Notes under the pieces: model-generated
What the model was told of the DNA's origin: nothing
Seen by the model: the letters and a program-made list of their open reading frames with translations, nothing else
Database searches by the model: none
Program-made: the position numbers and the translations under genes
Origin: Streptomyces sporangiiformans
GTDB taxonomy: Bacteria > Actinomycetota > Actinomycetes > Streptomycetales > Streptomycetaceae
Length of the DNA stretch: 64,000 bases
Reading direction: 5' to 3'
Assembly (NCBI RefSeq): GCF_005768555.2
Contig: NZ_VCHX02000352.1
Coordinates: 1 to 64,000, forward strand
Part shown: positions 28,656 through 51,858 of the stretch, piece by piece
Layout: each line of letters begins with the position of its first letter
Numbering within the stretch: the stretch's first letter is position 1

Positions 28656-28682
28656 CATGTGTGCACGCCACGGGAGGCAGCC

Positions 28683-32778: not shown

Positions 32779-33753
32779 TCAGTAGGCGACGGGCCATCCG
32801 CTGCTCCAGTTCAGAAGGTTGACACCGAGCTTCGGAGTTCCGTTGTCCTGGCCGTCGTAGTAGTGGTAGACGATCAGGTCGCCGTCCACATCGTTCATGA
32901 TCGACTGTCCGCCGGGGCCGATGTACCGGCCGTGCGACTCCAGCACGGGCGTACCACCGTTGTTCATCATCGCGACGCCGTTCTTGTCGCGGTACGGCCC
33001 GGTGACGCCGGTCGCCCGGCCGACCTTCACCTTGTAGGTGGAGCTCGTGCCGGCGCAGCATGTGTCGTACGAGGCGAACAGGTAGTAGTAGCCGCCCCGT
33101 TTGACGATGTACGGGGCCTCGACGGCCTTGGTCCCGGTGGGGCGCGACGCCAGCGAGTAGCGGGTGGTGTTGGACGAGAGCTGCTTCCCGGTCGACGGAT
33201 TGATCTGGATCATCTTGATCCCGGTCCACCAACTGCCGAAGGACAGCCACCACTTGCCGTCGTCGTCCACGAAGAGGTTCGGGTCGATGGCGTTGTAGTC
33301 GTTCGACGCGCTCGAGGTGTGGACGATGCCCTGGTCGGTCCAGCTGCCCGGCCGGCCGGTGCTCGAAGTCGCCAGCCCGATGGCCGAGTTCTGCGAGCCG
33401 AAGGACGAGACCGAGTAGTACAGCAGGTACTTGCCGCCGTGGTACGAGAGGTCGGGCGCCCAGGCCTCCGGCACGGAGGAGTACCGCGACCACCAGCTGG
33501 GCCGCGAGGAGAACGCGTCGGCGCCGCCGCTGAAGGCGATGCGGTCGGTGGAGGTGCGGTTGCTGATGCCTCCGCCGGTGGCGTACAGCAGGTACTGGCC
33601 CGACGAAGTGCGCAGCATCGTCGGGTCGTGGACCACGGTCGAGCCGGTGACGGTGCCCGGGTTCGGATATGCGGACGCCGAGCTCGGGACGAGCGCGAGC
33701 AGGATGGCCGCGGGGACGGCGAGAAGAGTGGTTCTTCGGGAGGTGCGGCGCAC
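32779..33753 (-). CDS. secreted GH43 arabinanase (paralog 1)
   Basis: A 324-residue exported family 43 glycoside hydrolase of the endo-1,5-alpha-L-arabinanase type. The signal peptide starts at GTG 33753 (ribosome site GGAGG) and ends near SASA (residue 28). The three catalytic acids are D43 (VVHDPTML), D157 (NAIDPNLF) and E212 (VEAPYIV). CCAGTSSTYKV is typical of this subfamily. A close paralog is encoded at 42972-43967. The promoter upstream is one of three matching promoter/operator elements. Confidence 0.92.
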   Translation of the reverse strand: MRRTSRRTTLLAVPAAILLALVPSSASAYPNPGTVTGSTVVHDPTMLRTSSGQYLLYATGGGISNRTSTDRIAFSGGADAFSSRPSWWSRYSSVPEAWAPDLSYHGGKYLLYYSVSSFGSQNSAIGLATSSTGRPGSWTDQGIVHTSSASNDYNAIDPNLFVDDDGKWWLSFGSWWTGIKMIQINPSTGKQLSSNTTRYSLASRPTGTKAVEAPYIVKRGGYYYLFASYDTCCAGTSSTYKVKVGRATGVTGPYRDKNGVAMMNNGGTPVLESHGRYIGPGGQSIMNDVDGDLIVYHYYDGQDNGTPKLGVNLLNWSSGWPVAY

Positions 33754-33805
33754 GCGGAGCCTCCTTGCGTGGGGGCGTGGGGGGGGAACAGCCCGTTCGG
33801 TCACG

Positions 33806-33871
33806 TTCGGCATTTTGAACGCCGGTCATGACTTCGAACGGGACCGTAGAATCGAACCCCTTGCGCGTCAA
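33806..33871 (-). promoter_or_regulatory. shared promoter/operator element, copy 1 (arabinanase)
   Basis: On the minus strand, TTGACG (33866-33871), a 17-bp spacer and TACGGT (33843-33848) form a clear promoter. The downstream flank, read on the plus strand, is ACTTCGAACGGGACCGTA, identical to the copy at 47.1 kb. A degenerate palindrome TTCGGCATTTTGAA (33806-33819) lies between promoter and gene. The spacer has AAGGGGTT where the other two copies have AAGCGCTT. Confidence 0.75.
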
Positions 33872-33923
33872 CGGTTCGCGCAGCACCTTCCAGCACGCCG
33901 GTCGTCGAATCGCGTTCGACAAC

Positions 33924-34187
33924 TCACCTGTCGCAAAGCTGACTTGCCGCCCTGGACGTGCGCCTGCCCGGGTCGGCGGGGCGGCTGCGCGAGACGATGC
34001 GCATGCCGGTGACGTCCACGACACGCACTTGAAGCGAACCGCACCCGCAGCGGGTCCACACCGTGCTGCCCGCCGCGGTGGTGTGCCGGGACACCACCTG
34101 GAAGGGCTCCGCGCGGTCCGGCCAACCGCAGTGCGGGCATACGTCGCCGGTCGCGCCGCGGGCCCTGCCGTCGGCTGTGCTGGTCAT
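33924..34187 (-). CDS. small zinc-ribbon protein
   Basis: An 87-residue protein with CPHCGWP and RCGCGSLQVRV, four cysteines spaced for a zinc ribbon. The ATG at 34187 has a strong ribosome site (GGAGGAG). A basic tail (SRSRPADPGRRTSR) follows. No enzyme domain is present. It lies between the arabinanase promoter and a divergent LysR gene; similar small proteins occur in streptomycetes, without a known role. It could bind nucleic acid. Confidence 0.65.
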   Translation of the reverse strand: MTSTADGRARGATGDVCPHCGWPDRAEPFQVVSRHTTAAGSTVWTRCGCGSLQVRVVDVTGMRIVSRSRPADPGRRTSRAASQLCDR

Positions 34188-34289
34188 CTGCGACTCCTCC
34201 TGTGCATGCAGGTATGTAAGGGGATACATCCGGAAACGGCTGGATGGACGGTCGCGACACAGCCAGGGTGTACCGACGCCTTTGTGTAC

Positions 34290-34310
34290 GTCCAGGTTGA
34301 CTTCCTGGAC
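34290..34310. promoter_or_regulatory. inverted repeat upstream of lysR
   Basis: GTCCAGG and CCTGGAC form a perfect 7-bp inverted repeat with a 7-bp spacer, 22 bp before the lysR start. It is a candidate autoregulatory LysR box. Confidence 0.45.
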
Positions 34311-34332
34311 CTCACCTTGAAGCGTGGGCTTC

Positions 34333-35238
34333 ATGATTGACCTACGCCGGTTGCATGTCCTCCGGGCGGTCGACCACTACGGAACGGTCACCGCCGCCGC
34401 CCGTGCCCTGCACTTCACCCCGTCCGCCGCCTCTCAGCAGATCCGGCAGCTCGCCCGCGACCTGGGCGTCGACCTGCTGGAGCCGCAGGGGCGCGGCGTA
34501 CGGCTCACCCCGGCCGCGCAGAGCCTGCTGACGCATGCCGACGCGATCCAGGCCCACTGGGAGCGGGCCGAACTCGATCTGCGGGCCGACCACACCGACC
34601 CCGCCGGGCTGCTGCGGACGAGCGGCTTCCCCGTGGCCATCTCGGTCCTGCTCGCCCCGATGGCGGCACACCTGCGGGAACGCCACCCAAAACTCTGCGT
34701 CCGGATCCATGAGGCGGAGGTGACCGAGAGTTTCGATCTGCTCTTCGAGGGCGAGATCGATCTCGCCGTCGTCGAGGCCACCCCGCACAACCCGCCGCTC
34801 AGTGACGCCCGCTTCGACCAACAGCCGCTCCTGGACGACCCGTTCGACCTGGTCGTCCCCGACACGCACCGGCTGGCGGGGCGTACCCACGTCGATCTCA
34901 GGGACGCCGCCCGCGAGGACTGGATCGCCCCGGTGCCGAACAGCCCCTGCCGTCCGCACGTCCTTTCGGCGTGCGGCGCGGCCGGCTTCACGCCCGATGT
35001 CGTCCACCACGCGATGGACTGGAACGTCATGGCCCATCTGGTCGCCAACGGCCTGGGCGTCGCCCTGATCCCCCGCCTCGCCCATCTGACACCGCACCTG
35101 CCGATCAGCCGCGTACGCTGCACCGCCGACCCGCACCGCAAGCTCCTCACCTGCACCCGCAGCGGCGGCCACGAACGACCGGCCGTCGCGGCCGCCCTGC
35201 GCGAACTGCGCGCACTGGCACCTACGGCGGTGGCATGA
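34333..35238 (+). CDS. LysR family transcriptional regulator
   Basis: A 301-residue regulator. The winged helix-turn-helix is at residues 1-60 (GTVTAAARALHFTPSAASQQI). The substrate-binding domain follows, with typical strands such as IDLAVVE. It starts at ATG 34333; a GTG three codons earlier is possible. It is divergent from the small zinc-ribbon gene and convergent with a methyltransferase. The target is unknown; ArgP/IciA-like or amino-acid-responsive regulators have a similar outline, but no assignment is made. Confidence 0.9.
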   Translation: MIDLRRLHVLRAVDHYGTVTAAARALHFTPSAASQQIRQLARDLGVDLLEPQGRGVRLTPAAQSLLTHADAIQAHWERAELDLRADHTDPAGLLRTSGFPVAISVLLAPMAAHLRERHPKLCVRIHEAEVTESFDLLFEGEIDLAVVEATPHNPPLSDARFDQQPLLDDPFDLVVPDTHRLAGRTHVDLRDAAREDWIAPVPNSPCRPHVLSACGAAGFTPDVVHHAMDWNVMAHLVANGLGVALIPRLAHLTPHLPISRVRCTADPHRKLLTCTRSGGHERPAVAAALRELRALAPTAVA

Positions 35239-35284
35239 GGCCGGCGCCCGGCAACGAGAGCCTGGAGCGATCACCTGCAGCGGG

Positions 35285-36019
35285 CTACTCCCCCTCCGGC
35301 CGCAGGGCGACGAAGACGAACTCCCGGCCCGGCCGGTCGGGGGCGTCGCGCACGTCGTCCACCACGTACCCCTGCGCGGTCAACTCCGCCTCGATCTCCG
35401 CCCGCTCGCGAGAACGCAGCGTCGAATCCGAGGTCAGTACCTGCCCGTCCGCGGCGAACACATAAGTCCAGCGGAAACTCACCAGCGGCTCACTGACCTC
35501 GACCAGGTCGACCCAGCTCTCGACCGCGCCGACGCCCGGAATCTCCACCACGCCGTACGAGGCGTCACGGTTCCACTCCTCCCAGGCGCGCTGCGCGGGA
35601 TCCCGGGTCTCGAACACGAAACGCCCGCCCGGCCGCAGCGCTTCGTAAGCCCCTCGCAGGGTCATCCGCCACGCCTCGGAGTCGGTGATCTCCTGGGCGG
35701 CGTTCGCCGTCATGGTCGCGAGGTCGACCCGCAGCGGCGGGAGCGCCGTAGCATCACCATGGATCCAGCGCACCCGGTCGCCACCCGGCTTGGCCCGGGC
35801 CACATCGAGGGACGCGGCGGCCGGATCAACACCGACGACCTCGATCCCCCGGCCGGCCAGCGAAAGCGCGAACACGCCCGTCCCGCAGCCGATGTCCAGC
35901 ACCCGGCGCGCCCCGAACTCCTCCACGACGCGGACGTACGCGTCGAGATCGCTTCGGTCGGGGTCGAGCGGGTCGTAGATCGCGGCGAGCCGGGGATTCC
36001 TGAATACCTCGCCAGCCAT
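35285..36019 (-). CDS. class I SAM-dependent methyltransferase
   Basis: A 244-residue methyltransferase. The SAM-binding motif I is VLDIGCGTGVFALSLAGRG and the acidic end of strand 2 is VVGVDPAAASL. The C-terminal half has WVDLVEVSEPLVSFRWTYVF, common in small methyltransferases of unknown substrate. ATG 36019 was chosen because the sequence before it is not protein-like. It is convergent with lysR, 46 bp apart. Confidence 0.85.
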   Translation of the reverse strand: MAGEVFRNPRLAAIYDPLDPDRSDLDAYVRVVEEFGARRVLDIGCGTGVFALSLAGRGIEVVGVDPAAASLDVARAKPGGDRVRWIHGDATALPPLRVDLATMTANAAQEITDSEAWRMTLRGAYEALRPGGRFVFETRDPAQRAWEEWNRDASYGVVEIPGVGAVESWVDLVEVSEPLVSFRWTYVFAADGQVLTSDSTLRSRERAEIEAELTAQGYVVDDVRDAPDRPGREFVFVALRPEGE

Positions 36020-36183
36020 GAGACCAAAGGTATCCGGCGCGTCCGGGGCCGGGCAGGCTCGCGACGGCATGCGGAATGTGCCCCAACTCCGGTGGAAGCA
36101 GGGGACGTTGGGCGGTAGGTCCTCAGCTTCCGCACAGCCGCGCACCAAGGCTTTCCTCAGATACGCCCCTACGTTCTTGGCCC

Positions 36184-36917
36184 ATGACCGAGAACACCAC
36201 TCCCCACGGCAACGCCCCCGAGGCGTACTCCGACACCACCGTGTCCGGCAGGCACCGCCGGGACAAGAGCGTCCAGCGACGCCGTGTGCTGATCGGCGGC
36301 GGCACCATCGCCGTGACCGGCGGGCTGGCGGCGGCCGGGCTCGCAGCCGCCGAACCGAGCACCAGGAAGAAACAGACCAAGGCGTCGACCTCCGCCACCA
36401 GCAGCGTGTGCGTTCTCAACGCCGAGGTCACCGAGGGCCCGTACTCCCTCGAAGGCGCCCTCGTCCGCGAGGACATCAGGGAGGACAAATAGGGCTTCGA
36501 GGTCCGGTACACCTTCACGGTCGTCGACATCGCGAACGACTGCGCCCCGCTCGCGGACGCCCTGGTCGAGATCAGAACGGCCAGTGCGGCATCACCTCGA
36601 TCTGGCCCGGCCACTACGTCTCCCGCGCCGTCCACGTCCATATGCGCGTCCACACGGACGTCACGCTCACCGACGACTCGTACACCGGTGGCGAGATCAT
36701 CCACACCGGCCAGCTGTTCTTCGACCCGGACATCAACGAGGAGATCCAGGCGACCTCCCCGTACTCGGCCAACACCACCCCCGAGACCGCCCTCGCCGAC
36801 GACAGCATCTACGACGACGGCGGCGCCTCCTCCGGTCTGCTGACGCTGACGGCACTGGGCTCCAGCGTGTCGGACGGCTACAAGGCCACGCTCACCGTCG
36901 GCATCGACAGCACCTGA
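36184..36917 (+). pseudogene. intradiol dioxygenase pseudogene
   Basis: The start codes for a twin-arginine leader (RRRVLIGGG) and the N-terminus of a secreted intradiol ring-cleavage dioxygenase-like protein (CVLNAEVTEGPY). A TAG at 36490-36492 stops the frame. Reading past it gives FTVVDIANDCAPLADALVEI and then breaks off where the family has its first iron-ligand region. In another frame, ITSIWPGHYVSRAVHVHMRV and the normal C-terminal part continue to TGA at 36917. So there is one nonsense codon plus an out-of-frame internal deletion, which removes the first tyrosine/histidine ligands. The protein would have acted outside the cell on aromatic compounds. Confidence 0.85.
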
Positions 36918-36947
36918 GCCGAGGACCGAGCCGAAAGCAGCGTCGAC

Positions 36948-36977
36948 GGCCCGGGACCAGAGCTGGAGTCCCGGGCC
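36948..36977. terminator. terminator between dioxygenase pseudogene and ABC permease
   Basis: GGCCCGGGAC (36948-36957) pairs with GTCCCGGGCC (36968-36977) around a 10-nt loop, between converging units. Confidence 0.8.
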
Positions 36978-36984
36978 TTGCCCC

Positions 36985-37845
36985 TCACTGCCCCGACAAG
37001 CCCGTGTGCGCCACCCCCCGCACGATCTGCCGCTGGAACAGTACGAAGACGATCAGCAGCGGCAGGCCCGCGATGACGACCGACGCCATCATCTGCTCGT
37101 AGCGCAGGCCGTAGGAGGTCTGGACGTTGACCAGGCCCACCGGAAGGGTCATGCCGCCCGGGTCGGTGGTCACCAGGAACGGCCAGAGGAAGTTGTTCCA
37201 GGTGGAGATGAAGGTGAAGATACCCACAGCGGCCAGCACCGGGCGGGACAGTGGCATCACGATCGTCCAGAACACCCGCCAGCGGCCGGCGCCGTCGACG
37301 AAGGCCGCCTCCTCCAGTTCGCGGGGAACGCCGTCGAAGAACTTGACCAGGATGAACACCATGGCCGGGGCGGCGACTTGGGGCAGGATCACACCCCAGT
37401 AGGTGTCGACCAGGCCGAGTTGGACCATCTCGGCGAACAGCGGGGCCATCAGGACCTGGGGCGGAACCATGATTCCGGCGAGGACGACGGCGTACAGGAT
37501 CTTGCGGCCGCGGAACTCCGTGCGGGAGAAGCCGTACGCCGCCATCGCGCAGAGCAGGACCGTCAGGATGGTGGTCATCACCGAGATGTACGCCGTGTTG
37601 AACATCCAGCGGCCGATGTCCCCCGCTTCCCAGACCTTCCGGTACGCGTCCAGGGTGAGGTGCGAGCCGATCCAGCGCAGGGGCGTCTTCGTTGCCTCGC
37701 CCTCCGGTTTGAGGGACGTCGCCACGGTCCAGGCCAGGGGGAGAATCCACACCACCGCTAGGATCAGGGCACCGGCCAGCATCACCCAGCGGCCCGGTGT
37801 CCAGCGGACCTTGCGTCCCTCGTCGGTTGACGTCAGCACGCTCAC
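36985..37845 (-). CDS. carbohydrate ABC permease, MalG type (system 1)
   Basis: A 286-residue membrane permease of the CUT1 family. About six helices are visible, and the EAA loop reads EEAAFVDGAGRWRVFWTIVMPLSRP. It starts at GTG 37845 with the ribosome site GGGAGGCA, overlapping the stop of the partner permease by 4 bp. It is the last gene of a three-gene operon (binding protein, two permeases). No ATPase gene accompanies it, so a shared ATPase such as MsiK is expected. It is a paralog of the permease at 43990-44838. Confidence 0.92.
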   Translation of the reverse strand: MSVLTSTDEGRKVRWTPGRWVMLAGALILAVVWILPLAWTVATSLKPEGEATKTPLRWIGSHLTLDAYRKVWEAGDIGRWMFNTAYISVMTTILTVLLCAMAAYGFSRTEFRGRKILYAVVLAGIMVPPQVLMAPLFAEMVQLGLVDTYWGVILPQVAAPAMVFILVKFFDGVPRELEEAAFVDGAGRWRVFWTIVMPLSRPVLAAVGIFTFISTWNNFLWPFLVTTDPGGMTLPVGLVNVQTSYGLRYEQMMASVVIAGLPLLIVFVLFQRQIVRGVAHTGLSGQ

Positions 37846-38792
37846 TTCGCTGCCTCCCCACTCCGGCGGGACAGCCGCAGCTGCACCAGTGAAACGACCA
37901 CGATCAGTGCGAAGAAGATGTACGAGACGGCCGACGCGTAGCCGATGCGGTAGCCGGTGAACCCGGACTGGTAGACGTACTGGAGGATCGGGCGGGTCGA
38001 GTCGTCGGGGCCACCGCCCGTCATGATGTACACCTGGTCGAAGATCTTCAGGGAGGCCAGGATCTGGAGGATCAGGACCAGTCCCGTGGTGCGCTTCAGC
38101 AGCGGGAGGGTCACGTGCCGCAACCTGTGCCAAGCCCCCGCGCCGTCCAACTCCGCCGCCTCGTAGAGGTGTCGGGGGATGGACTGCAACGCCGCCAGGT
38201 AGAGAAGGAAGTTGAAACCGACCGTCCACCAGACCGTGGCGAGGACGATCGAGAGCATCGCGTAGCGCTCGTCCGTCAGCCAGCCGATGCCCGGGTGCAG
38301 GCCGAAGGCGGCGAGCAGCTGGTCCGCGAAGCCGAAGTCCGAGGGGAAGATCACCCAGAGGAACAGCAGACCGATCACGCCCGACGGCAGGAGGAAGGGC
38401 GCGAACCACGAGAGCCGCCACAGCCATTGGACGAACCGCAGGTGGTGCGAGAGCAGCGCCATGACCAGGCCCGTCACCACCAGCGGCACCGTCGACAGGA
38501 TCGTGAACCAGATCGTGTTCCACAGTGACGACCAGACGCCCGGGTCCCGGAAGGCCTCCGCGTAGTTGTCGAAGCCGATGAACTCCCCTCCCTCACCGGT
38601 GATGTTGTCGCTGCGCAGGCTCATGCCGATGCCGGAGACCAGCGGCCAGAGGAGGAAGAGGGCGTAGGCGAGGAAGAAGGGGCCGATGAACATCAAGCCG
38701 TGCTCGGTCCACTTACGGCGGATGCCGACGGGCCGGGCCGCCGGTTTGTCCGCCGAGACCGGGACGGAGGTCGCGGTCGTCGTCGTGGTCAC
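37842..38792 (-). CDS. carbohydrate ABC permease, MalF type (system 1)
   Basis: A 316-residue membrane permease of the CUT1 family. It has a threonine-rich N-terminus, six to seven helices and the EAA loop YEAAELDGAGAWHRLRHVTLP. It starts at GTG 38792 after AGGAGGT, overlapping the binding-protein stop (GTGA). It is a paralog of 44835-45782: both contain NITGEG, a LWRL-FAPFLLPS-V motif and WWTVGF-FLLYLAALQ-IP. Confidence 0.92.
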   Translation of the reverse strand: MTTTTTATSVPVSADKPAARPVGIRRKWTEHGLMFIGPFFLAYALFLLWPLVSGIGMSLRSDNITGEGGEFIGFDNYAEAFRDPGVWSSLWNTIWFTILSTVPLVVTGLVMALLSHHLRFVQWLWRLSWFAPFLLPSGVIGLLFLWVIFPSDFGFADQLLAAFGLHPGIGWLTDERYAMLSIVLATVWWTVGFNFLLYLAALQSIPRHLYEAAELDGAGAWHRLRHVTLPLLKRTTGLVLILQILASLKIFDQVYIMTGGGPDDSTRPILQYVYQSGFTGYRIGYASAVSYIFFALIVVVSLVQLRLSRRSGEAAK

Positions 38793-40144
38793 GCGGCACC
38801 TCCTGCGCTGCCGAGTGAATCGCTGCCAAGCGGATCGGGCGTGTCGAGCAGCTTCCGCAGTCTCTTCTTCGCCGCGCTCAGGGCGCCTCGCGGCGTGCGC
38901 GATCCGGTGAGGACGCCCGAGAAGACCGCGCCCAGCTGGATCCACATCGGCGAGGCCGAGCCCGCGAACCAGGCGGGCTGGTCGAGGACCACGTCGTCGA
39001 TGACCGAGCGGTACTCGGACTGCGGCTCCAGCTTCAGATAGGCCGGTTCCTCCAGAGTCGGCAGATACGCGGGTACGTGGCCGCCCTTGGCCCAGTCAAC
39101 GGAGTGCTTGAGCATCCAGGCGACGAAGGTGTGGACGGCCTCGGTCGCCGCGTCCGAGCGGCCGTCCTGATGCGGGAGCACGAAGGAGTGGCAGTCGGCC
39201 TGGGCGGCGGGGCGCCCGAAGAGCCCGGGTACGCGGGTCATGGAGAACGGCAGCTTGCTGGTGGCGAAGGTGGACACCTCCCACTCGCCGTTGAGGTGGA
39301 AGGCGGTCTTGCCGGCGTTGAACACCCCGATGGAGCCTGGGTAGTCGACGCGGCGGACCATCAGGCCGTCCTCGGTGAGCGAGGCCATGAACTCAAGGAT
39401 CTCCAGGGCCTTGGCGTCGTCGAGCGCGAGGCGTCTGCCGTCCGCGGACAGGACCGTGCCGCCCAGCTGCGAGTAGAAGGTGGCGAACAGGCGCCAGGGC
39501 GTGACACAGTCGGGGCCCGTCGTCTCGGCGGTCAGCCCGGGTGCGCCCGTGGCCTTCTTCGCCGCGCGCAGGGCGTCCGTGAACTCCCGGGCGCTGCCGA
39601 TGGTCCGGAGCTTCCCGCCGTCGCCGAGCAGCCCGGCCTTCTCGCAGACGTCGGTGTTGTAGTAGAGCACCATGGGGTGGGTGTCGAAGGGGATGGCGTA
39701 CTGCTTCCCGTCGACCGTGCCGCGCTTCCAGATGGCCTCGGGGAACTGGCTGCTCCCGACGCCCAGTTCCCGGAGCCGGTCCAGGTCGAACGGGTCGAGG
39801 AGCCGCCCGGGGCCGAAGCCCGCGAGCCTGGCCAGGTGGAGGACCGCCACCTCGGGCGCCCGCCCGCCGGCCCCTGCCATGCTCAGCTTCGTGTAGTACG
39901 GAGTGCCCCATTGGAGCTGGGTCGCCTCCAGGTCGATCCCCGGGTGCTCCTTGGCGAACGCGTCGACCAGCGCGGTCATGTTGGCCCCGTCGCCACCGCC
40001 GAAGAGGTGCCAGTAGCGCAGCCGAGTCCTCCCCTCGGCACCGAAGGAGGGTGCGGCGCAGCCCGCCGCGCCCAGCGCCAGTCCTCCGGTGGCGGCGAGT
40101 AACTTCCGTCTGGTCAGGCGTGGTTCATGTCGTACATCGTTCAC
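38789..40144 (-). CDS. sugar-binding lipoprotein (system 1)
   Basis: A 451-residue CUT1 substrate-binding protein. The twin-arginine signal (LTRRKLLAATGG) ends in lipobox AAGC with Cys29. The mature fold shows RYWHLFGGGDGANM and PYYTKLSMAGAGGRAPEVAVLHL. It starts at GTG 40144 with the ribosome site AAGGA. From its genomic company, an arabino-oligosaccharide or pectin-derived oligosaccharide is the likely ligand. It is clearly paralogous to 45779-47128, and both operons start from the same promoter/operator element. Confidence 0.9.
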   Translation of the reverse strand: MNDVRHEPRLTRRKLLAATGGLALGAAGCAAPSFGAEGRTRLRYWHLFGGGDGANMTALVDAFAKEHPGIDLEATQLQWGTPYYTKLSMAGAGGRAPEVAVLHLARLAGFGPGRLLDPFDLDRLRELGVGSSQFPEAIWKRGTVDGKQYAIPFDTHPMVLYYNTDVCEKAGLLGDGGKLRTIGSAREFTDALRAAKKATGAPGLTAETTGPDCVTPWRLFATFYSQLGGTVLSADGRRLALDDAKALEILEFMASLTEDGLMVRRVDYPGSIGVFNAGKTAFHLNGEWEVSTFATSKLPFSMTRVPGLFGRPAAQADCHSFVLPHQDGRSDAATEAVHTFVAWMLKHSVDWAKGGHVPAYLPTLEEPAYLKLEPQSEYRSVIDDVVLDQPAWFAGSASPMWIQLGAVFSGVLTGSRTPRGALSAAKKRLRKLLDTPDPLGSDSLGSAGGAA

Positions 40145-40161
40145 GGCCCGTCCTTGAGTTG

Positions 40162-40226
40162 TCCGAAATTCCGAACTATGCCCGTAACTTCGGACGGACC
40201 GTAGAGTCGAAGCGCTTCCGCGTCAA
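40162..40226 (-). promoter_or_regulatory. shared promoter/operator element, copy 2 (ABC system 1)
   Basis: On the minus strand, TTGACG (40221-40226), 17-bp spacer and TACGGT (40198-40203). The spacer holds GGAAGCGCTTCG, a near-palindrome of the kind bound by LacI-family proteins. Between promoter and gene lies TCCGAAATTCCGAA (40162-40175), 11 of 14 matches to the IclR-type motif. Confidence 0.75.
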
Positions 40227-40251
40227 CGGTTCGCGCAAGCTTTCGCGCGAT

Positions 40252-41160
40252 CTAGACGGCGACCGGCTCCGCCACCTCGGCCGCCTCTTCCGTCGCCCTC
40301 TCCTTGCGGTGGGCGCGGATCGAGTAGGCCAGGGCGGCGGCCCACAGCGCGTACAGCAGGACGTAGACGGGGGTGCTCAGCGCGCTGGACACGGCGATCC
40401 AGTCGCTCTTCAGGAGCGTATTGACGTTGGTCACGATGATGACGCCGCCGACCGCGGAGCCGAGCACGCGCGGCGGGACGAGGCGTACCAGCCAGGCGGC
40501 TATCGGGGCGGCGATCAGCCCACCGAGGAGGAAGGCGGCGACCCAGGCCCAGTCGAGGCCCTGTGAGCCGAGGGAGAGGAGGAAGCCGAGGCTGGCGGCG
40601 ATCGCGACCATGAACTCGCTGGTGTCGATCGAGCCGATCACCTTGCGGGGTTCCATGCGACCGCTGGCCAGCAGGGCCGGGGTACCGACCGGGCCCCAGC
40701 CGCCCCCGCCCGTCGCGTCCAGGAACCCGGCGACCAGCCCGAGCGGCGACAGGAACCGTTTGCCGAGCGGCTTGCCGAGGTTGCCCTTGGGCATACCGCG
40801 GAACGTGAACCGGGACATGACGTACAGGCCGAGCCCGAGCAGGATCAGCGACATCACCGGCTCGGCGACCCCGGTGGACAGCCGGGACAGGACGGTCGCG
40901 CCGAGGAACGCTCCAAGGGCGCCGGGCACGCCGATCCTGGCGACGACCTTCCAGTCCACGTTCCCGAAGCGCCAGTGCGCGGCCCCGGACATCAGGGTCG
41001 TACCGATCTCGGCGAGGTGGACCGTGGCCGAGGCCGCGGCCGGGTTGGTACCCAGGGCGAGCAGCAGGGTGGTCGAGGTCACGCCGTAGGCCATGCCAAG
41101 GCTGCCGTCCACCAACTGGGCCCCCAGGCCCGCCAGTGCGAGCAGTACCAGCGTGCGCAT
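40252..41160 (-). CDS. TSUP (TauE/SafE) family anion permease
   Basis: A 302-residue membrane protein with about eight helices in two related halves (GVTSTTLLLALGTNPAAASATVHLAEIGTT and FLDATGGGGWGPVGTPALLASG), the hallmark of sulfite/sulfonate exporter-type permeases. ATG 41160 is preferred because GGGGA stands 9 bp before it; an in-frame ATG at 41178 has no ribosome site. It lies with its tail facing the ABC operon promoter. Function: probably transport of a sulfur anion or organic acid. Confidence 0.88.
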   Translation of the reverse strand: MRTLVLLALAGLGAQLVDGSLGMAYGVTSTTLLLALGTNPAAASATVHLAEIGTTLMSGAAHWRFGNVDWKVVARIGVPGALGAFLGATVLSRLSTGVAEPVMSLILLGLGLYVMSRFTFRGMPKGNLGKPLGKRFLSPLGLVAGFLDATGGGGWGPVGTPALLASGRMEPRKVIGSIDTSEFMVAIAASLGFLLSLGSQGLDWAWVAAFLLGGLIAAPIAAWLVRLVPPRVLGSAVGGVIIVTNVNTLLKSDWIAVSSALSTPVYVLLYALWAAALAYSIRAHRKERATEEAAEVAEPVAV

Positions 41161-41189
41161 ACGCGTCTGTCCCCTCATTCCCTAGCTTG

Positions 41190-41206
41190 CCTACCGGTTC
41201 AGTAGG
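41190..41206 (-). promoter_or_regulatory. inverted repeat upstream of TSUP gene
   Basis: CCTAC-CGGTTCA-GTAGG is a 5-bp inverted repeat with a 7-bp spacer, about 30 bp before the gene start. It is a possible operator. Confidence 0.35.
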
Positions 41207-41335
41207 AATTCCCGGACGAGGGTAGGCGATCAAGGTGAGAAGACGTTGAAGGCGATGTGAAGACGCATCACAGTCCGGGGCGGGCCAAAGGGGCTGATGT
41301 TCCAGCCCATTTGGCGCCCTGTCGTCCTGTGACCG

Positions 41336-42847
41336 TCACACCAGGCGGATCACGTTCCAGGAAAGCGGCTCCAGGACGCCGCTGAGCGTGCCGTCGTGGA
41401 GGGTGGTGTCCGTGACGGGGTGCGGGGTGACGCGGTCCGGGGTGTCGAGGGTGTTGCGGGCCTCGGGATCGGTGTCCGCCAGTGCGGAGTGCTCCAGAAC
41501 CGAGGTCAACTCCAGGCCATTCAGCGCGACTTCGAGCGGAAGCCGCTCCGTCCGGCTGCGGTTGACCGCGAACACCGTCACCGAACCGTCCTCGGCGCGC
41601 ACGGCCGTGGCGTGCAGCAGGTCCGTCTCGCCGTACTTCTTCGTCTCGTACGTCGGCGAGTCCACGCGGACGTCGAGGACCTGCCCACGCCCGTACCGGG
41701 AGGCCTGCGCGAACGGGAAGAACGTCGTCTGCCGCCAGGCCGGACCGCCCGGCTCCGTGAGGATCGGCGCGATGACGTTGACGAGTTGGGCGAGGCAGGC
41801 GACGGTCACCCGGTCCGCGTGCCGCAGCAGCGCGATGAGCAGGGAGCCGAAGACGACCGCGTCCATGACGCTGTAGTTGTTCTCCAGCAGACGGGGCGCC
41901 TGCGGCCAGTCCCGCGCGGAGGAGTCCTCGATCGCGTGCCACTCCGACGTGTACCAGACGTTCCACTCGTCGAAGGACAGGTTGATCTTCTTCTTGGACT
42001 TCAGCTTCGCGCCCACGTGGTCGCAGGTCGCGACGACGTTCTCGATGAAGGACTCCATGTCGACGGCGGAGGCGAGGAAGGAGTCGACGTCGCCGTCCTG
42101 GGGCTCGTAGTAGGCGTGCAGGGAGATGTGGTCGACGAGGTCGTACGTCTCCGCCAGGACGGTCGCCTCCCACGCGGCGAAGGTGGGCATGCCCTGGCTG
42201 GAGGACCCGCAGGCGACCAGTTCGACGGACGGGTCGATCTGCCGCATGGCCCGGGCGGTCTCGGCGGCGACGCGGCCGTATTCCTCGGCGGTCTTGTGCC
42301 CGGTCTGCCAGGGACCGTCCATCTCGTTTCCGAGGCACCACAGCCTGATCCCGAAGGGGTCCTTGTCGCCGTGGGCCGCGCGGAGGTCCGACAGGGCCGT
42401 GCCGGAGGGGTGGTTGGCGTACTCCTGGAGTTCCAGCGCCTCCGCGACCCCCCGGGTGCCCAGGTTGAGGGCCATCATCGGCTCGGCCTGCGGGCCGATC
42501 TTCTTCAGGAAGGCGATGTACTCGCTGAGCCCGAAGCGGTTGGTCTCCGTGGACCGCCAGGCGAGGTCGAGCCGGCGGGGCCGCTCGTCCGCGGGGCCCA
42601 CCGAGTCCTCCCACTTGTAGCCGGAGACGAAGTTGCCTCCGGGGTAGCGGATCGTGGTCACGCCGAGCTCGCGGACGAGTTCGAGGACGTCGGTACGGAG
42701 GCCTCCGGCGTCGGCCGAGGGGTGGTCGGGTTCGTAGATGCCGGTGTAGACGCAGCGGCCGAGGTGCTCGACGAAGGAGCCGAAGAGACGCGGGTTGACC
42801 TCACCGATGGTGAAGGCGGGATCGAGGGTGAAGCGGGCGGTGCGCAT
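41336..42847 (-). CDS. GH51 alpha-L-arabinofuranosidase
   Basis: A 503-residue intracellular family 51 enzyme that removes terminal L-arabinofuranose from imported arabino-oligosaccharides. The acid/base Glu175 is in CLGNEMDG and the nucleophile Glu294 in LSFDEWNVW. The N-terminal barrel and C-terminal jelly roll have normal length. There is no signal peptide. The ATG is preceded by AGGAAAAG. It is the last gene of the arabinan operon 47128 to 41336. Three 15-bp tandem repeats stand immediately before it. Confidence 0.95.
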   Translation of the reverse strand: MRTARFTLDPAFTIGEVNPRLFGSFVEHLGRCVYTGIYEPDHPSADAGGLRTDVLELVRELGVTTIRYPGGNFVSGYKWEDSVGPADERPRRLDLAWRSTETNRFGLSEYIAFLKKIGPQAEPMMALNLGTRGVAEALELQEYANHPSGTALSDLRAAHGDKDPFGIRLWCLGNEMDGPWQTGHKTAEEYGRVAAETARAMRQIDPSVELVACGSSSQGMPTFAAWEATVLAETYDLVDHISLHAYYEPQDGDVDSFLASAVDMESFIENVVATCDHVGAKLKSKKKINLSFDEWNVWYTSEWHAIEDSSARDWPQAPRLLENNYSVMDAVVFGSLLIALLRHADRVTVACLAQLVNVIAPILTEPGGPAWRQTTFFPFAQASRYGRGQVLDVRVDSPTYETKKYGETDLLHATAVRAEDGSVTVFAVNRSRTERLPLEVALNGLELTSVLEHSALADTDPEARNTLDTPDRVTPHPVTDTTLHDGTLSGVLEPLSWNVIRLV

Positions 42848-42854
42848 CTTTTCC

Positions 42855-42899
42855 TTTCGAGGGGTTCAGTTTCGAGGGGTGCAGTTTCGAGGGGTGCAG
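42855..42899 (-). repeat. three 15-bp tandem repeats before GH51 gene
   Basis: Units at 42855-42869, 42870-42884 and 42885-42899 read TTTCGAGGGGTGCAG, with one base changed in the first. They lie 8 bp from the GH51 start and would be part of its mRNA leader. Confidence 0.85.
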
Positions 42900-42900
42900 T

Positions 42901-42971
42901 TTTGTCTGCGGGTCGTGTGTGGCTGGTCGCGCCCACGCGGCGGAGCCGCACATTGATGCTGCCCCGCGCCC
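42901..42971. repeat. dispersed repeat module inside arabinan operon
   Basis: CTGGTCGCGCCCACGCGGCG, a GGAGCCGCACA-type continuation and CCCCGCGCCCCT also occur at 7703-7760. This is a part copy of the intergenic repeat family, inserted between two genes of one operon. Confidence 0.6.
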
Positions 42972-43967
42972 CTAACCGGCGCTTGGCCAGCCGTTCTTTG
43001 TCCAGTTCAGGGTGTTCAGGCCCAGCTTGGGCGTGCCTGAGTCCTCTGCGTCGTAGTAGTGGTACGCCAGGATGTCTCGGCCCTTGTGCCTGAAGACCGA
43101 CTCGCCGCCCGGGCCCACGTACCGGCCGTGGCCGGCCAGCAGCAGGTCGCCGCCGCCCTCCAGCAGGGGCTTGCCCGTGCTGTCGACGTACGGGCCGGTC
43201 ACCGAGGTCGAGCGGCCGACTCTGATCTTGTACGTCGAGTTCACGCCCGCACAGCACGCGTCGTACGAGGCGAAGAGATAGAAGTAGCGACCGTGCCGGA
43301 CGATGGACGGGCCCTCCACCGCGTACGGCGCGTCGGGGCGGGTTGCCAGGTGGTGGACCGTGGCGCCGGGGATCGCCTTGCCCGTCTTCGGGTTCAGCTC
43401 GATCATGCGGATGCCCGTCCAGTACGAGCCGAAGGACATCCACAGCTTGCCGTCCGCCCTGATGATCGCCGGGTCGATGGCGTTCCAGTCCTCGCCCCGC
43501 TCGGAGGCGAAGACCTTGCCGCGGTCGGTCCAGGTTCCGGGCAGGCCGGTCCGGGAGGTGGCGACGCCGATCGCGGAATGGTTCGTGCCCCAGGAGGAGA
43601 CCGAGTAGTAGAGCCAGTACCTGCCGTGGCGGTACGAGATGTCGGGCGCCCAGGGGTCGCCGGTGTCGTTGTACTCGTACCACCACGCGGGCGGCTCGGC
43701 GAAGGCGTTGCCGGCGTCGGTCCAGTGCCTGAGGTTCTTGGACAGGCGGGCTCCGATCACGCCGCCCGTGGAGTAGGCGACGTACTGGCCGTTCTTGAGG
43801 CGGAGGACGGTCGGGTCGTGGATGATCTCCTGACCTGTGATCGGCCGGGGGTCGGGGTACTCGGCCGCCTGCGCCGTGGAGGGGAGGAGGGCGAGCAGGG
43901 CGGCGGCGGTCAGGGCCGTGGCGAGGCCGAAGCGTCTCAACGTGATCAACCGGCTCAACTTGCTCAA
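42972..43967 (-). CDS. secreted GH43 arabinanase (paralog 2)
   Basis: A 331-residue exported family 43 enzyme, paralog of 32779-33753. The signal peptide ends near AQA (residue 34). The catalytic acids are D51 (IHDPTVL), D165 (NAIDPAII) and E218 (VEGPSIV). The start is TTG 43967 with the ribosome site AGGAG at 8 bp; no ATG or GTG fits. It is encoded in the ABC operon 22 bp after the permease, so import and depolymerisation are co-expressed. Confidence 0.9.
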   Translation of the reverse strand: MSKLSRLITLRRFGLATALTAAALLALLPSTAQAAEYPDPRPITGQEIIHDPTVLRLKNGQYVAYSTGGVIGARLSKNLRHWTDAGNAFAEPPAWWYEYNDTGDPWAPDISYRHGRYWLYYSVSSWGTNHSAIGVATSRTGLPGTWTDRGKVFASERGEDWNAIDPAIIRADGKLWMSFGSYWTGIRMIELNPKTGKAIPGATVHHLATRPDAPYAVEGPSIVRHGRYFYLFASYDACCAGVNSTYKIRVGRSTSVTGPYVDSTGKPLLEGGGDLLLAGHGRYVGPGGESVFRHKGRDILAYHYYDAEDSGTPKLGLNTLNWTKNGWPSAG

Positions 43968-43989
43968 CTGGCACTCTCCTTCGGTGACT

Positions 43990-44838
43990 TCACTGGCCCG
44001 CGAGACCGGTGTGGGCGACGCCCGCGACGATCTGCCGCTGGAAGAAGACGAAGACGATGATCAGGGGCAGGCCCGCCATGAGACCGCCGGCCATGAGCTG
44101 GGCCCACTGGATGCCGTAGGAGTTCATGACGGTCGCGATGCCGTTCGGCATCGTCATCAGGTCGGGGTTGTTGGTCGCCATGTACGGCCAGAGGAAGTTG
44201 TTCCACGACGCGATGAAGGTGAAGATCCCGACGGCGGAGAGTGAGGGACGGGAGAGCGGGAGAACGATGGTGAAGAAGATCCGCCAGCGTCCGGCGCCGT
44301 CGATGAACGCGGCCTCCTCGACCTCTCGCGGGATGCCCTGGAAGAACTTGTAGAGGATGTAGACCATGGCCGCGGGCGCGCACTGCGGCAGGATCATGCC
44401 CCAGTACGTGTCGATCATGCCCATCGACTGCACGGTCGTGAAGAGCGGGACGCCGAGGACGGCCGGAGAGATCATCAGGCCCGCCATCACCAGGCCGAGC
44501 AGCGCGTTCTTGCCGCGGAACTCGGTGCGTGCGAAGCCGTAGCCGGCGAGCGCGCTGACGAGTACGACGACGAAGGTGACGCAGATCGAGACGACCAGGG
44601 AGTTCACGAACCAGTTGGTGATGTTGCCGGTCTCGAAGATGTTCTTCCAGGCCTGGGCGGTCCAGTCCTTGGGGAGCCACCGGACCGGCACGGCGACGGC
44701 TTCGGCCTCCGATTTGAAGGAGGTGAACAGGGTCCACACGAGCGGGGCCGTCATCACCGCGGAGACGGCTGCGCCGACCACGGTGAGGATGATCTGGCTC
44801 GGGCTCCAGCTTTTGCGTACTCCGACGCCGGCACTCAT
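43990..44838 (-). CDS. carbohydrate ABC permease, MalG type (system 2)
   Basis: A 282-residue CUT1 permease with about six helices and the EAA loop EEAAFIDGAGRWRIFFTIVLPLSRP. It starts at ATG 44838, overlapping the stop of the partner by 4 bp. It is the paralog of 36985-37845. No dedicated ATPase gene is present in the operon. Confidence 0.92.
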   Translation of the reverse strand: MSAGVGVRKSWSPSQIILTVVGAAVSAVMTAPLVWTLFTSFKSEAEAVAVPVRWLPKDWTAQAWKNIFETGNITNWFVNSLVVSICVTFVVVLVSALAGYGFARTEFRGKNALLGLVMAGLMISPAVLGVPLFTTVQSMGMIDTYWGMILPQCAPAAMVYILYKFFQGIPREVEEAAFIDGAGRWRIFFTIVLPLSRPSLSAVGIFTFIASWNNFLWPYMATNNPDLMTMPNGIATVMNSYGIQWAQLMAGGLMAGLPLIIVFVFFQRQIVAGVAHTGLAGQ

Positions 44839-45782
44839 CGGGTGCCCTCCTCACGCTTGCGCAGCAGCCACATCCGCCCCAGGGCGACGATGGCGATGAT
44901 CAGGAAGAAGAGGATGGAGATCGCGGAGGCATAGCCGACGCGATAGCTGGTGAAGCCCTGTTCGAGGGTGTACTGGACCAGCGTGCGGGTCGATTGCTCC
45001 GGCCCCGGACCGAACTCGTACATCACCACGACCTGGTCGAAGACCTGGAGCGAGGCGAGGATCTGGAGCGCCACGACCAAGCCGGTGATGTTGCGCAGCA
45101 TCGGCAGGGTGATGCGGATCATGCGGTGCCAGGCGTTCGCGCCGTCCAGGGCGGCGGCCTCGTACAGGTGCGGCGGGATGTTCTGCAGGGCGGCCAGGTA
45201 GAGCAGGAAGCTGAAGCCGACGGTCCACCACAGGGTGGCGATGACGACGGCGGTCATGGCCGTGGACTTCTGGGTGAGCCAGGCCGATTCCAGGCCGAAG
45301 ATGTGGTCGATCAGTCCGGTGTCCGGGTTGAACATCCAGCGCCACATGTTGCCGACGACGGCGGACGGCAGCAGGAACGGGGCGAAGAAGCACAGCCGCC
45401 AGAGCCACTTGGCGTGCTCGATGTGGTGGGCGAGCATGGCGAGGAGGAAGGCGGCGACGACGATGCAGGGCACCACGAGGAGCGTGAAGTAGGCGCTGTG
45501 GCCGAGAGATTCCCACATCAGGGGATCGCCGAGCGCCTCGCGGTAGTTGTCCAGGCCGACGAAGCTCGCGCCCTCACCGGTGATGTTGGCGTCGGTCAGG
45601 CTCAGCCACAGGCCGCGCAGGATGGGGACGAGAACGAAGAGCGCGTACAGGAGCAGGAACGGGGCGACGAACCAGCCGCCGTGCTGGAGCATACGACCGA
45701 GCCGGGCCCGGTTGCCGTCCTCCGCGACCGCGGCCACGGAGCGTACGGCGCCGGGGACGGCCGTGGTGTCGAGGGTGGTCAT
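44835..45782 (-). CDS. carbohydrate ABC permease, MalF type (system 2)
   Basis: A 315-residue CUT1 permease with the EAA loop YEAAALDGANAWHRMIRITLP. It starts at ATG 45782, overlapping the binding-protein stop (ATGA). It is the paralog of 37842-38792, with the same NITGEG insert and helix motifs. It forms the transmembrane channel together with the MalG-type partner. Confidence 0.92.
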   Translation of the reverse strand: MTTLDTTAVPGAVRSVAAVAEDGNRARLGRMLQHGGWFVAPFLLLYALFVLVPILRGLWLSLTDANITGEGASFVGLDNYREALGDPLMWESLGHSAYFTLLVVPCIVVAAFLLAMLAHHIEHAKWLWRLCFFAPFLLPSAVVGNMWRWMFNPDTGLIDHIFGLESAWLTQKSTAMTAVVIATLWWTVGFSFLLYLAALQNIPPHLYEAAALDGANAWHRMIRITLPMLRNITGLVVALQILASLQVFDQVVVMYEFGPGPEQSTRTLVQYTLEQGFTSYRVGYASAISILFFLIIAIVALGRMWLLRKREEGTR

Positions 45783-47128
45783 GCCGCGCCGCCTCCCATC
45801 GGGTTCCTCATCTCCAGGAGCCCTTCCAGGACTCGGCGCATTCGGCGGGCCACCGCTTCGGGTTTCACCGAGCCGAGGTTGGCGGCGACGACCACGGGGC
45901 CGATGCGCTGGGAGAGAGTGCCGCTGGAACCCGAGAACCAGGCCTCGGGTTCGAGTGCCATGTGGTCCATCGCGGAGGCGTACTCGGACTGCGGCCGGAG
46001 CTTCTGGTACGCCGGGTCGGAGAGGGTCGGCAGGTGGGCGGGGATGTGGCCGCCGCCCGCCCAGTCGACGGCGTGCAGGACGATGTGTGCGGCCAGTCGG
46101 TGGGCGGCCTCGTTGCCGGCGCCGCCGCGTTCGGCCTGGCGGGGCAGGACGAAGGCGTGCGACTCCGCCTGGGTCGCGGGCTTGCCGAAGAGGGCCGGCA
46201 GCGGGGTGGCACCGTAGTCGAGCTTGGGTCCGGAGTAGACCGGCACGGACCACCCGCCCTCCCAGACGAAGGCACCGCCGTTGATGAAGTGCTCGGCGTC
46301 GGGGGCGCCCGGGACGTTGTAGCCGTCGGTGATGTGCCGGCGCAGGAACTCCAGGACCTCGGTGGCCTTGTCGGTGTCGAAGGTGACGTCGGTGAGGCCG
46401 GAGTCGTAGTAGGTGCCGCCCGCCTGGGCGTAGAAGGACATGAAGAACCACCAGGCGAAGTTCTGGTCGGAGGCGTGCACGCCGACCGTCTGGATTCCCC
46501 TCCTGACGGCTTTCTTGGCGGCCTTCAGCGCGTCGAACCAGTCGTCGGTGGAGGTGAGCGGGACGAGGTTGCCGTCGTCACCGATCAGCCCGGCCTTCTC
46601 GCAGACGTCCTTGCGGTAGAAGTTCAGCTGAGGGTGGATGTCGAGGGGCAGGGCGTACAGCTTGCCGTCGATGACGGACCGTTTCCACAGTGCCGGGTCG
46701 AAGTCCTCTTCCCTCACCCCGTATCGGGCGAGGATCTCCCTGTCGAAGGGATCCAGAAGCCGCTCGGGCGCGAAGCCGGCGAGTCGGCCGAGGTGCGTCA
46801 CCCCCAGTTCGGGGGCGCGGTCGCCGGCGGCCGCCATGGCCAGCTTGGTGTAGTACGGATTGCCCCACCGAAGCGTGGAGTCCTTCACGTCGATGCCGGG
46901 GTTCGCCTTACGGAAGGCGTCCAGCATCGCGATCATGTTGGCGCCGTCGCCCCCGCTGAAGAGGTTCCAGTAGCGCACCCGCGTCCCCGCGCCGGAGGCG
47001 AGGGCGTCGGCGCCCGTCCCCACCGCGGCGAAACCTAAGCTCCCGGCAACGGCCAACCCGCCCAGGCCGCCCAGGAGTTGTCTGCGATTCAGGTCAGGTT
47101 GTCCCACTACCCCGCCTTTGTTCGACAT
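45779..47128 (-). CDS. sugar ABC substrate-binding protein (system 2), no lipobox cysteine
   Basis: A 449-residue CUT1 binding protein, paralog of 38789-40144 (RYWNLFSGGDGANM, PYYTKLAMAAAGDRAPELGVTHL). The twin-arginine signal NRRQLLGGLGG is clear, but where the paralog has its lipidation Cys this protein reads GFAAVGTGADA, without any cysteine. It may be released, or stay anchored by its uncleaved signal. It starts at ATG 47128; the start codon lies inside the operator palindrome. First gene of the five-gene arabinan operon that ends with GH43 and GH51. Confidence 0.9.
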   Translation of the reverse strand: MSNKGGVVGQPDLNRRQLLGGLGGLAVAGSLGFAAVGTGADALASGAGTRVRYWNLFSGGDGANMIAMLDAFRKANPGIDVKDSTLRWGNPYYTKLAMAAAGDRAPELGVTHLGRLAGFAPERLLDPFDREILARYGVREEDFDPALWKRSVIDGKLYALPLDIHPQLNFYRKDVCEKAGLIGDDGNLVPLTSTDDWFDALKAAKKAVRRGIQTVGVHASDQNFAWWFFMSFYAQAGGTYYDSGLTDVTFDTDKATEVLEFLRRHITDGYNVPGAPDAEHFINGGAFVWEGGWSVPVYSGPKLDYGATPLPALFGKPATQAESHAFVLPRQAERGGAGNEAAHRLAAHIVLHAVDWAGGGHIPAHLPTLSDPAYQKLRPQSEYASAMDHMALEPEAWFSGSSGTLSQRIGPVVVAANLGSVKPEAVARRMRRVLEGLLEMRNPMGGGAA

Positions 47129-47186
47129 ATCGAATATCGCACGTAACTTCGAACGGGACCGTAAAATCGAAGCGCTTGCGCGTCAA
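47121..47186 (-). promoter_or_regulatory. shared promoter/operator element, copy 3 (arabinan operon)
   Basis: On the minus strand, TTGACG (47181-47186), 17-bp spacer with CGCAAGCGCTTCG and TACGGT (47158-47163). The best IclR-type palindrome of the window, TTCGACATATCGAA (47121-47134), overlaps the start codon, about 17 bp downstream of the expected transcript start. The leader is very short and has no clear ribosome site. Confidence 0.8.
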
Positions 47187-51660: not shown

Positions 51661-51679
51661 GGCCGGCTCCCTCCCTATG

Positions 51680-51693
51680 TTCGATATTTCAAC
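51680..51693 (-). promoter_or_regulatory. candidate IclR autoregulatory site
   Basis: Read on the minus strand it is GTTGAAATATCGAA, 12 of 14 matches to TTCGAAATATCGAA, placed 20 bp before the iclR start. Confidence 0.5.
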
Positions 51694-51858
51694 AGACGAT
51701 CGGCATGACGAACACAGGCTACTCATGTGGGTTTCCGCGGGCAATGGCCTGACCGTCACGGGTGGGTAGCGGGAGGAGCGGAACAATCCGGTCAAAGGGG
51801 ATGCCTGGGCGGGAGAAGCGGGCGCGGGCGGCGGGGAAAGCGGCCGGGGGCCGAGCCG

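Follow-up and report, generated by a model that had tools for sequence, protein, structure and literature searches.

A conserved tandem operator of the IclR type in promoters of arabinan and hemicellulose utilization genes of Streptomyces

Introduction

Members of the genus Streptomyces are well known for breaking down plant cell walls in the soil. In a stretch of 64,000 nucleotides of Streptomyces sporangiiformans DNA (contig NZ_VCHX02000352.1, positions 1 to 64,000; hereafter the window), three promoter modules precede units for arabinan utilization, one headed by a GH43 endo-arabinanase (GH43a) and two by the solute-binding proteins (SBPs) SBP2 and SBP3. Here we describe the tandem operator which directly follows these promoters and relate it to an IclR-family protein encoded in the same window. 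Judged from sequence comparisons, the modules very probably belong to an autoregulated IclR-family regulon that serves the use of arabinan and hemicellulose, in which some of the promoters carry an extra LacI-type site.

The closest described operators are those of the IclR family. Motifs of the GTNCG-N5-6-CGNAC type have been reported for PcaR, PcaU, PobR, HmgR, NdgR and others, and tandem sites 18–22 nt apart, mainly 19–21, have been linked to tetramer binding (PMC8222616). The window operator has the same half-sites, the same spacing within the palindrome, the same distance between tandem centres and the same closeness to the gene start, and the known IclR regulons include sugar or sugar-acid genes, as is the case here (PMC8222616). 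The targets in the present case are, in contrast, enzymes acting on arabinan, arabinoxylan and pectin; no such regulon is named in the passages of PMC8222616 considered here, and the word-stem 'arabin' has no occurrence in its main text. KdgR, an IclR-family regulator of pectin and oligogalacturonate use, likewise exemplifies IclR control of plant cell wall polysaccharides and comes second among the NCBIfam matches of the window IclR, scoring below the cut-off. Its motif, RWWGAAACGNCGTTTCAKKA, is however placed in the A/T-rich group and is unlike the window operator (table of PMC8222616).

Regulators of the LacI family have been described for related substrates. BxlR, connected with xylobiose and xylanase genes, is also linked to Streptomyces hemicellulase genes, and BxlR-type motifs have been reported for xylan genes in a Streptomyces (PMC12772271). 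It differs from the present system in its family and its motif (CGAANxTTCG), and no tandem geometry is mentioned in the passages of PMC12772271 considered. In the same study an IclR-like protein was obtained by pull-down, the S. coelicolor homologue of which was linked by the authors to allantoin genes (PMC12772271). The regulators AraQ, AbfR and AauR of bifidobacteria deal with the same substrates as here, arabinose and arabino-oligosaccharides, but belong to the LacI and not to the IclR family (PMC5928203). IclR has no occurrence in the parts of the review PMC10766802 considered, and searches of the open-licence literature found no article on IclR, arabinan and Streptomyces together and none naming a regulator of Streptomyces arabinan genes.

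The promoter modules

The sequence-only reading of the window had described three elements sharing TTGACG, a spacer of 17 bp and TACGGT. These read as described, on the minus strand:

33843–33871, minus strand: promoter of the GH43 endo-arabinanase unit, spacer AAGGGGTT, without the LacI-type core
40198–40226, minus strand: promoter of the SBP2 unit, LacI-type core AAGCGCTT in the spacer at 40210–40217
47158–47186, minus strand: promoter of the SBP3/GH43/GH51 unit, -35 box TTGACG at 47181–47186, 17-bp spacer with AAGCGCTT at 47170–47177, -10 box TACGGT at 47158–47163

Two copies carry the flank ACTTCGAACGGGACCGTA unchanged, and the third has one substitution and one deletion in it, the two changes noticed earlier. 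With up to three mismatches, the pattern TTGACGNNNAAGNGNTTCGANTNTACGGT had three matches in the window compared to none in 100 dinucleotide shuffles, and the slightly stricter pattern TTGACGCGN... was found at these three places only in the assembly of 10,363,105 bp, the reversed-pattern control giving none. Random recurrence of the module was rejected, as the shuffles and the reversed-pattern controls were empty.

In the genus, the promoter pattern (up to three mismatches) occurs in 75 of 295 Streptomyces genomes and its reversed control in none. This survey was anchored on the motif; hence a gene-anchored search was also made, in which an SBP3 protein alignment led to 80 named Streptomyces loci (the best 80 of 185 relatives). 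Twenty further loci, a few of them from the same records, were chosen by the promoter motif. All 80 SBP3 promoters have a TTGAC -35 box and a TACGGT-type -10 box, directly followed by the consensus GTTCGAAGTTACG...ATTCGANATNTCGAAC with some variation.

Pairs of promoter elements were seen in two other genomes. One such pair is found in G253:C1 at ~600746–604139 and at 10936663–10940056, in opposite orientation and ~0.6 Mb from both contig ends, an arrangement as if in terminal inverted repeats. A like pair is located at the SBP2 and GH43a units of G228 (L048).

The tandem operator

The invariant part of the modules is a tandem operator placed just after the -10 box, in which two 16-bp palindromes of the GTTCG-N6-CGAAC type have their centres 19 bp apart. 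Upstream regions were scored on 22 specified positions; the operator was regarded as present at 17/22 or more, and the genes had to pass identity and length filters. The following sites were found in the window:

33805–33839, minus strand: GH43a operator, 19/22
40161–40195, minus strand: SBP2 operator, weaker, 18/22; an orthologous unit is in L048
47120–47154, minus strand: SBP3 operator, 21/22, before the likely GTG start at 47107; palindrome 1 at 47139–47154, palindrome 2 at 47120–47135
51679–51713, minus strand: IclR operator, 20/22, within the 5' leader predicted for the IclR gene
51739–51744 (TTGCCC) and 51716–51721 (TAGCCT), minus strand: promoter-like boxes before the IclR operator
21212–21246, plus strand: partial operator of the dehydratase operon, 17/22, downstream of TTGACA-N18-TACTGT (21180–21209)

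The palindrome which had been noticed between promoter and gene is thus there in all three copies, but each time it is only half of a tandem pair. Nor is the operator type limited to the three modules, as it also precedes the IclR gene of the window and, in weaker form, the dehydratase operon. The latter operator is without the left half of palindrome 1, but its placement downstream of the promoter boxes and before the operon was kept in all eight relatives read (in one of them, L233, the stretch stops short of the -35 box). Ribosome-binding sites and alignment with relatives indicate that SBP3, GH43a and IclR likely start at the GTG codons at 47107, 33753 and 51660, respectively, and the palindromes would therefore fall in the leaders rather than within coding sequence, where the longest frames would put them.

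The operator is strongly conserved and follows particular genes. Among the 80 SBP3-anchored loci it is upstream of SBP3 in 80/80, of GH43a in 18/18 and of IclR in 61/61 cases. The neighbouring genes score as follows: permease 0/80, SMP30 0/63, PucR 0/26, TauE 0/17, LysR 0/4, GguB 0/2 and GH51 3/75. With the 20 motif-chosen loci added, the counts are 98/98 for SBP3, 32/32 for GH43a, 67/67 for IclR and 1/1 for SBP2, and among the neighbours 0/99 for the permease, 1/72 for SMP30, 3/94 for GH51, 14/57 for the gene at 47361, 0/26 for TauE, 0/27 for PucR, 0/7 for LysR, 0/8 for GguB and 0/1 for ChvE; the reversed-sequence control scores 0.

The geometry is conserved as well. With palindrome 2 fixed, palindrome 1 scores at least 8/9 at offset 19 in 77 of the 80 SBP3 promoters, and no other offset between 10 and 31 bp was found in any of them; the 19 nt between the centres fall within the 18–22 nt of known tandem sites. 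The palindromes have the GTNCG-N5-6-CGNAC form of IclR motifs (RTTCGANATNTCGAAC), 78 of the 80 promoters scoring 12–14 of 14 positions and the other two 11. A third palindrome over the -10 box was considered but not adopted: its spacing relative to the others shifts by a base or more (by eye), and TTCGA[AT], which takes the form GTTCGATTCTACGGTC over the -10 box of GH43a promoters, is found in 27 of 32 GH43a promoters but in only 15 of 80 SBP3 promoters.

The predicted regulon and its candidate IclR regulator

The composite operator (up to three mismatches) has 17 matches at 15 distinct places in the genome of the window, compared to none for the reversed control; when the gap is lengthened by 5 bp a single match is left. 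Twelve of these places are outside the window, and ten of the twelve are within ~500 bp of genes for cell-wall polysaccharide enzymes, with the adjoining products listed here:

L214: GH62
L216: AbfB and a sub-threshold GH43
L217: GH127 and GH115
L218: GH43
L219: arabinofuranosidase domain
L221: GH10 and GH62
L223: Pel9A-like helix
L224: GH43
L225: GH43 and melibiase
L226: AbfB

The remaining two are L222, before a LacI gene, and L215, which has no clear target. At L217 (G000:C324:29840-29874) the divergent GH127 and GH115 genes have one tandem operator between them, which may control both.

The candidate regulator and the gene after it are located upstream of the SBP3 unit:

50887–51660, minus strand: predicted regulon repressor of the IclR family, with a likely GTG start at 51660
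50030–50890, minus strand: SMP-30/gluconolactonase-family protein (PF08450), overlapping the IclR stop and probably co-transcribed with the IclR gene

The IclR protein carries the helix-turn-helix and effector domains of the family, matching PF09339 with 48.3 bits (cut-off 22) and PF01614 with 164.3 bits (cut-off 24). Relatives with 81–95% identity were found in at least 73 of the 100 loci, which end at ~20 kb, and in 71 of the 73 loci having both genes IclR is upstream of SBP3 on the same strand. An operator before the regulator's own gene is common, though not required, in IclR regulons, and here it is present in every one of the SBP3-anchored relatives scored. In 295 Streptomyces genomes, an IclR match (E up to 1e-90) was found in 207 and the operator (up to two mismatches) in 170, with 0 for the reversed control. 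Both occur together in 169 genomes, IclR alone in 38, the operator alone in one and neither in 87 (Fisher p 5e-43), so that 87 of the 88 genomes without an IclR match are also without the operator. Within the order but outside the genus, a match was found in 1 of 15 genomes. An IclR-type block downstream of the promoter had been proposed from the sequence, and the conservation before the IclR gene (61/61) and the co-occurrence (169/295) uphold that part of the proposal, the window IclR being the likely binder.

The LacI-type core in the promoter spacer

It had further been proposed that a LacI-type block sits in the promoter spacer. The core AAGCGCTT is indeed in the two spacers where it was noticed and nowhere else in the window (0.36 occurrences expected; 5 of 100 shuffles reach two). 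Since this 8-mer is common in the genome (126 places, 172 for the reversed control), it is notable by its position only. At that fixed position the palindromic AA-CG-TT core is found in two of the three window copies and is exact in 48 of the 80 SBP3 promoters, the number of promoters at distances 0 to 8 from AAGCGCTT being 48, 3, 3, 9, 5, 7, 3, 1 and 1, respectively. The flanking spacer columns show 12–31 changes on the SBP3 tree (mean 20.5) and their most common 8-column haplotype is present in 6 of 80 promoters; the core columns, taken over all 80, show 4–23 changes. A neutral simulation, a simple one with a single rate, equal base frequencies and AAGCGCTT as the root state, leaves about one exact tip at rate 3 (mean of 15.5 changes per column, compared to the 20.5 observed in the flanks) and about three at rate 2. 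At a slow rate (0.5) the exact tips rise to a mean of 32 and an upper value of 61, but then about 31 one-mismatch tips appear, compared to three observed. As the count of exact tips is far above the neutral expectation, selection has probably kept the core in many lineages, others being without it, and a second, LacI-type control of the transporter promoter is plausible.

It could also be that only the IclR operator is functional and that AAGCGCTT is no LacI operator but belongs to the promoter or to the IclR site. We regard this as rather unlikely, although several results speak for it and count against a LacI block. The core is absent from the GH43a copy of the window, from 32 of the 80 SBP3 promoters, including the two nearest relatives by SBP3 identity (L084 and L085), and from 24 of 32 GH43a promoters, being exact in the other eight. 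The SBP3 tree requires no fewer than 16 changes in its presence, which equals the lowest value among 500 label shuffles (mean 25); the core is hence clustered by descent and kinship accounts for part of its frequency. Several bifidobacterial LacI regulators are local, encoded beside their genes, whereas none of the 55 LacI domains found in this genome is on the contig of the window (C167). The number of exact cores beside only three one-mismatch intermediates and strongly changing neighbouring columns, on the other hand, argues for a site in its own right, as do the extended sites beside LacI genes described below. In a search for a candidate LacI gene, 49 of the 55 LacI loci were scanned, and three have AAGCGCTT up to 300 bp upstream of the LacI domain:

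L067: TGTCGAAGCGCTTCGACA
L075: CAGCAAGCGCTTTCTA
L237: ATCTAAAGCGCTTTAAGC

The L075-type site fits best by its flanking G and C. A like site is present in 11 of 12 genomes picked for spacers of the AAGCGCTTCC type and lies beside this LacI gene in L194, L196 and L209. TAGN-AAGCGCTT-NCTA (up to one mismatch) occurs at 2–6 places in each of the 12 picked genomes, its reversed control at 0 or 1, and the 18 loci read comprise nine beside LacI genes, four that are the SBP3 promoter and five others. The LacI block proposed earlier is partly supported.

Two further observations concern these sites. In L195, L197, L200 and L203–L205 a LacI gene (GPTLAVV..AGVSVPTASKVVNG) has TAGN-AAGCGCTT-NCTA, with up to one mismatch, at or near its start. 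In GH43a promoters (window 33849–33865; L034–L163) the spacer mostly keeps CGCAAG...TTCGATTC with three free bases in the middle, the reverse of the SBP3 pattern, in which the core is kept and the flanks vary.

Alternative binders and the descent of the copies

The palindromes might be bound by another protein, for instance a further IclR paralogue or a LacI regulator that resembles BxlR and controls xylan genes, with the neighbouring IclR as a bystander. BxlR of Streptomyces has the reported motif 5'-CGAANxTTCG-3' (PMC12772271) and some palindromes here contain CGAAATTTCG; several targets of the regulon also resemble xylan genes. However, the fourth A of the BxlR motif is not conserved (GTTCGANATNTCGAAC), and the second palindromes of SBP3 and GH43a, TTCGATATGTCGAA and TTCAAAATGCCGAA, compared by eye and not with a matrix, do not conform to it. 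The tandem 19-bp geometry matches IclR operators, and the invariable operator before the IclR gene, together with its absence from nearly all genomes lacking that gene, makes a binder other than the window IclR improbable.

Some points do weaken the assignment to the window IclR. The co-occurrence is partly built in, as one of the operators counted in a genome is often that of the IclR promoter, and genomes without the IclR gene may also be without the target genes. In 38 genomes the IclR match comes with no operator at up to two mismatches, and other IclR paralogues may bind some of the sites. The operators of SBP2 (18/22) and the dehydratase operon (17/22) are below the threshold of the genome scan. 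The gene at 47361, finally, has the operator upstream in 13 of 51 SBP3-anchored loci; these scores probably come from the intergenic region that it has in common with SBP3.

The three modules had also been thought to have spread by duplication. If they were a recently duplicated cassette, they would be alike by descent and not by selection, and indeed the copies have TTGACGCGNAAG and the -10 region in common beyond the operator, and the two transporters look paralogous, an SBP2 query retrieving SBP3 loci mostly at 39–46% identity. Over the 64 columns of promoter core and operator compared, however, GH43a and SBP3 differ at 13, SBP2 and SBP3 at 13, and GH43a and SBP2 at 17, while the SBP3 element differs from its relatives at a minimum of 5 (median 12, n=98) and the GH43a element at a minimum of 4 (median 12, n=32). 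Being closer to their orthologues than to each other, the SBP3 and GH43a copies are older than the species, and recent duplication as the main cause was rejected for both. For SBP2 the comparison is equivocal: 10/64 differences to the sole orthologue read and a minimum of 9/64 to SBP3 relatives. The same geometry occurs before unrelated genes, the operator is found at the 12 places outside the window, and conservation in SBP3 promoters declines beyond palindrome 2. A recently duplicated cassette is thus very improbable as an explanation of the likeness, and this part of the sequence-only reading is not supported as a recent event. It is hardly credible that the palindromes work as an RNA structure in the leader of the transcript. 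They do lie in the predicted 5' leaders of the targets examined, but at gathering thresholds the window gave no Rfam match; moreover, the operators are short and their distance to the start codon varies.

Genes of the units

The three units and the sugar-acid operon of the window contain the following genes:

32779–33753, minus strand: GH43 endo-arabinanase GH43a (Pfam/NCBIfam), signal-like N-terminus, likely GTG start at 33753 after AAGGAGG
38789–40144, minus strand: solute-binding protein SBP2 (profile match)
37842–38945 and 36985–37842, minus strand: permeases of SBP2
45779–47107, minus strand: SBP3, predicted ATP-binding cassette (ABC) solute-binding protein, judging from its context and its similarity to SBP2, twin-arginine-like start
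44835–45800 and 43990–44838, minus strand: permeases of SBP3
42972–43967, minus strand: second GH43 arabinanase (Pfam/NCBIfam)
41336–42847, minus strand: GH51-type arabinofuranosidase ArfA (NF051901 above cut-off)
21278–29729, plus strand: sugar-acid operon with dehydratase, Zn-dehydrogenase, a protein without match, ChvE-GguA-GguB and aldose epimerase

In the first unit GH43a is followed by a pectate lyase at 31636–32601 (Pfam and NCBIfam), the second consists of SBP2 and its two permeases (Pfam/NCBIfam), and the third of SBP3, two permeases, the GH43 arabinanase and the ArfA-type arabinofuranosidase; SBP3 itself has no NCBIfam match. The LysR gene divergent from GH43a (34324–35238) was considered as its regulator and dropped, as it was found in only 7 of the 100 loci, a lower bound given that the loci are ~20 kb at most.

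The dehydratase of the sugar-acid operon belongs to the enolase superfamily, with galactonate dehydratase as its best NCBIfam match, below the cut-off, while ChvE, GguA and GguB, a monosaccharide transporter, are all above the NCBIfam cut-offs. The 322-aa protein at 23559–24527 has no Pfam or NCBIfam match and is possibly a missing enzyme of the pathway. AraA (PF02610, AraA_N) has no match in the whole assembly, the same search being positive in 5 of 14 control genomes; the lack of such a match stands beside a large predicted arabinan regulon in the same genome. The sugar-acid operon and the SMP-30 lactonase-family protein after IclR suggest a putative oxidative route of arabinose use.

Discussion

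The element is real and strongly conserved, and what is new is a probable IclR-type regulon for arabinan and hemicellulose within a known type of IclR operator. If the modules are read as an autoregulated IclR regulon, ordinary -35/-10 promoters would be directly followed by the tandem operator of an IclR-family repressor. The window IclR could occupy the two palindromes as a pair of dimers or as a single tetramer; the 19 bp from one palindrome to the other correspond to approximately two helical turns. The bound protein would cover the transcript start and the early leader and block the RNA polymerase. The operator spans approximately 40 bases directly downstream of the -10 box, which makes steric repression the simplest reading, and from this position we infer repression rather than activation. 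IclR would be released by an effector derived from arabinose, probably one of the sugar acids of the oxidative pathway, and would also repress its own gene and the arabinofuranosidase, arabinoxylanase and pectinase genes across the genome. In approximately 60% of the species, AAGCGCTT between the -35 and -10 boxes of the transporter promoter would provide a second, independent block, presumably by a LacI-family protein.

Taken further, and put forward tentatively, the IclR protein may be an undescribed but widespread master repressor in Streptomyces of the degradation of arabinan, arabinoxylan and pectin side chains, coupled to an oxidative and not an isomerase-based use of arabinose, with the species-variable LacI spacer site making the uptake operon a two-signal gate. 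The operator offers a direct means to list the regulon in hundreds of species. It also allows one protein to be tested for the regulon and perhaps the whole set of hemicellulases to be de-repressed. With the optional spacer site there is also a natural promoter series in which a second repressor site is either present or lacking.

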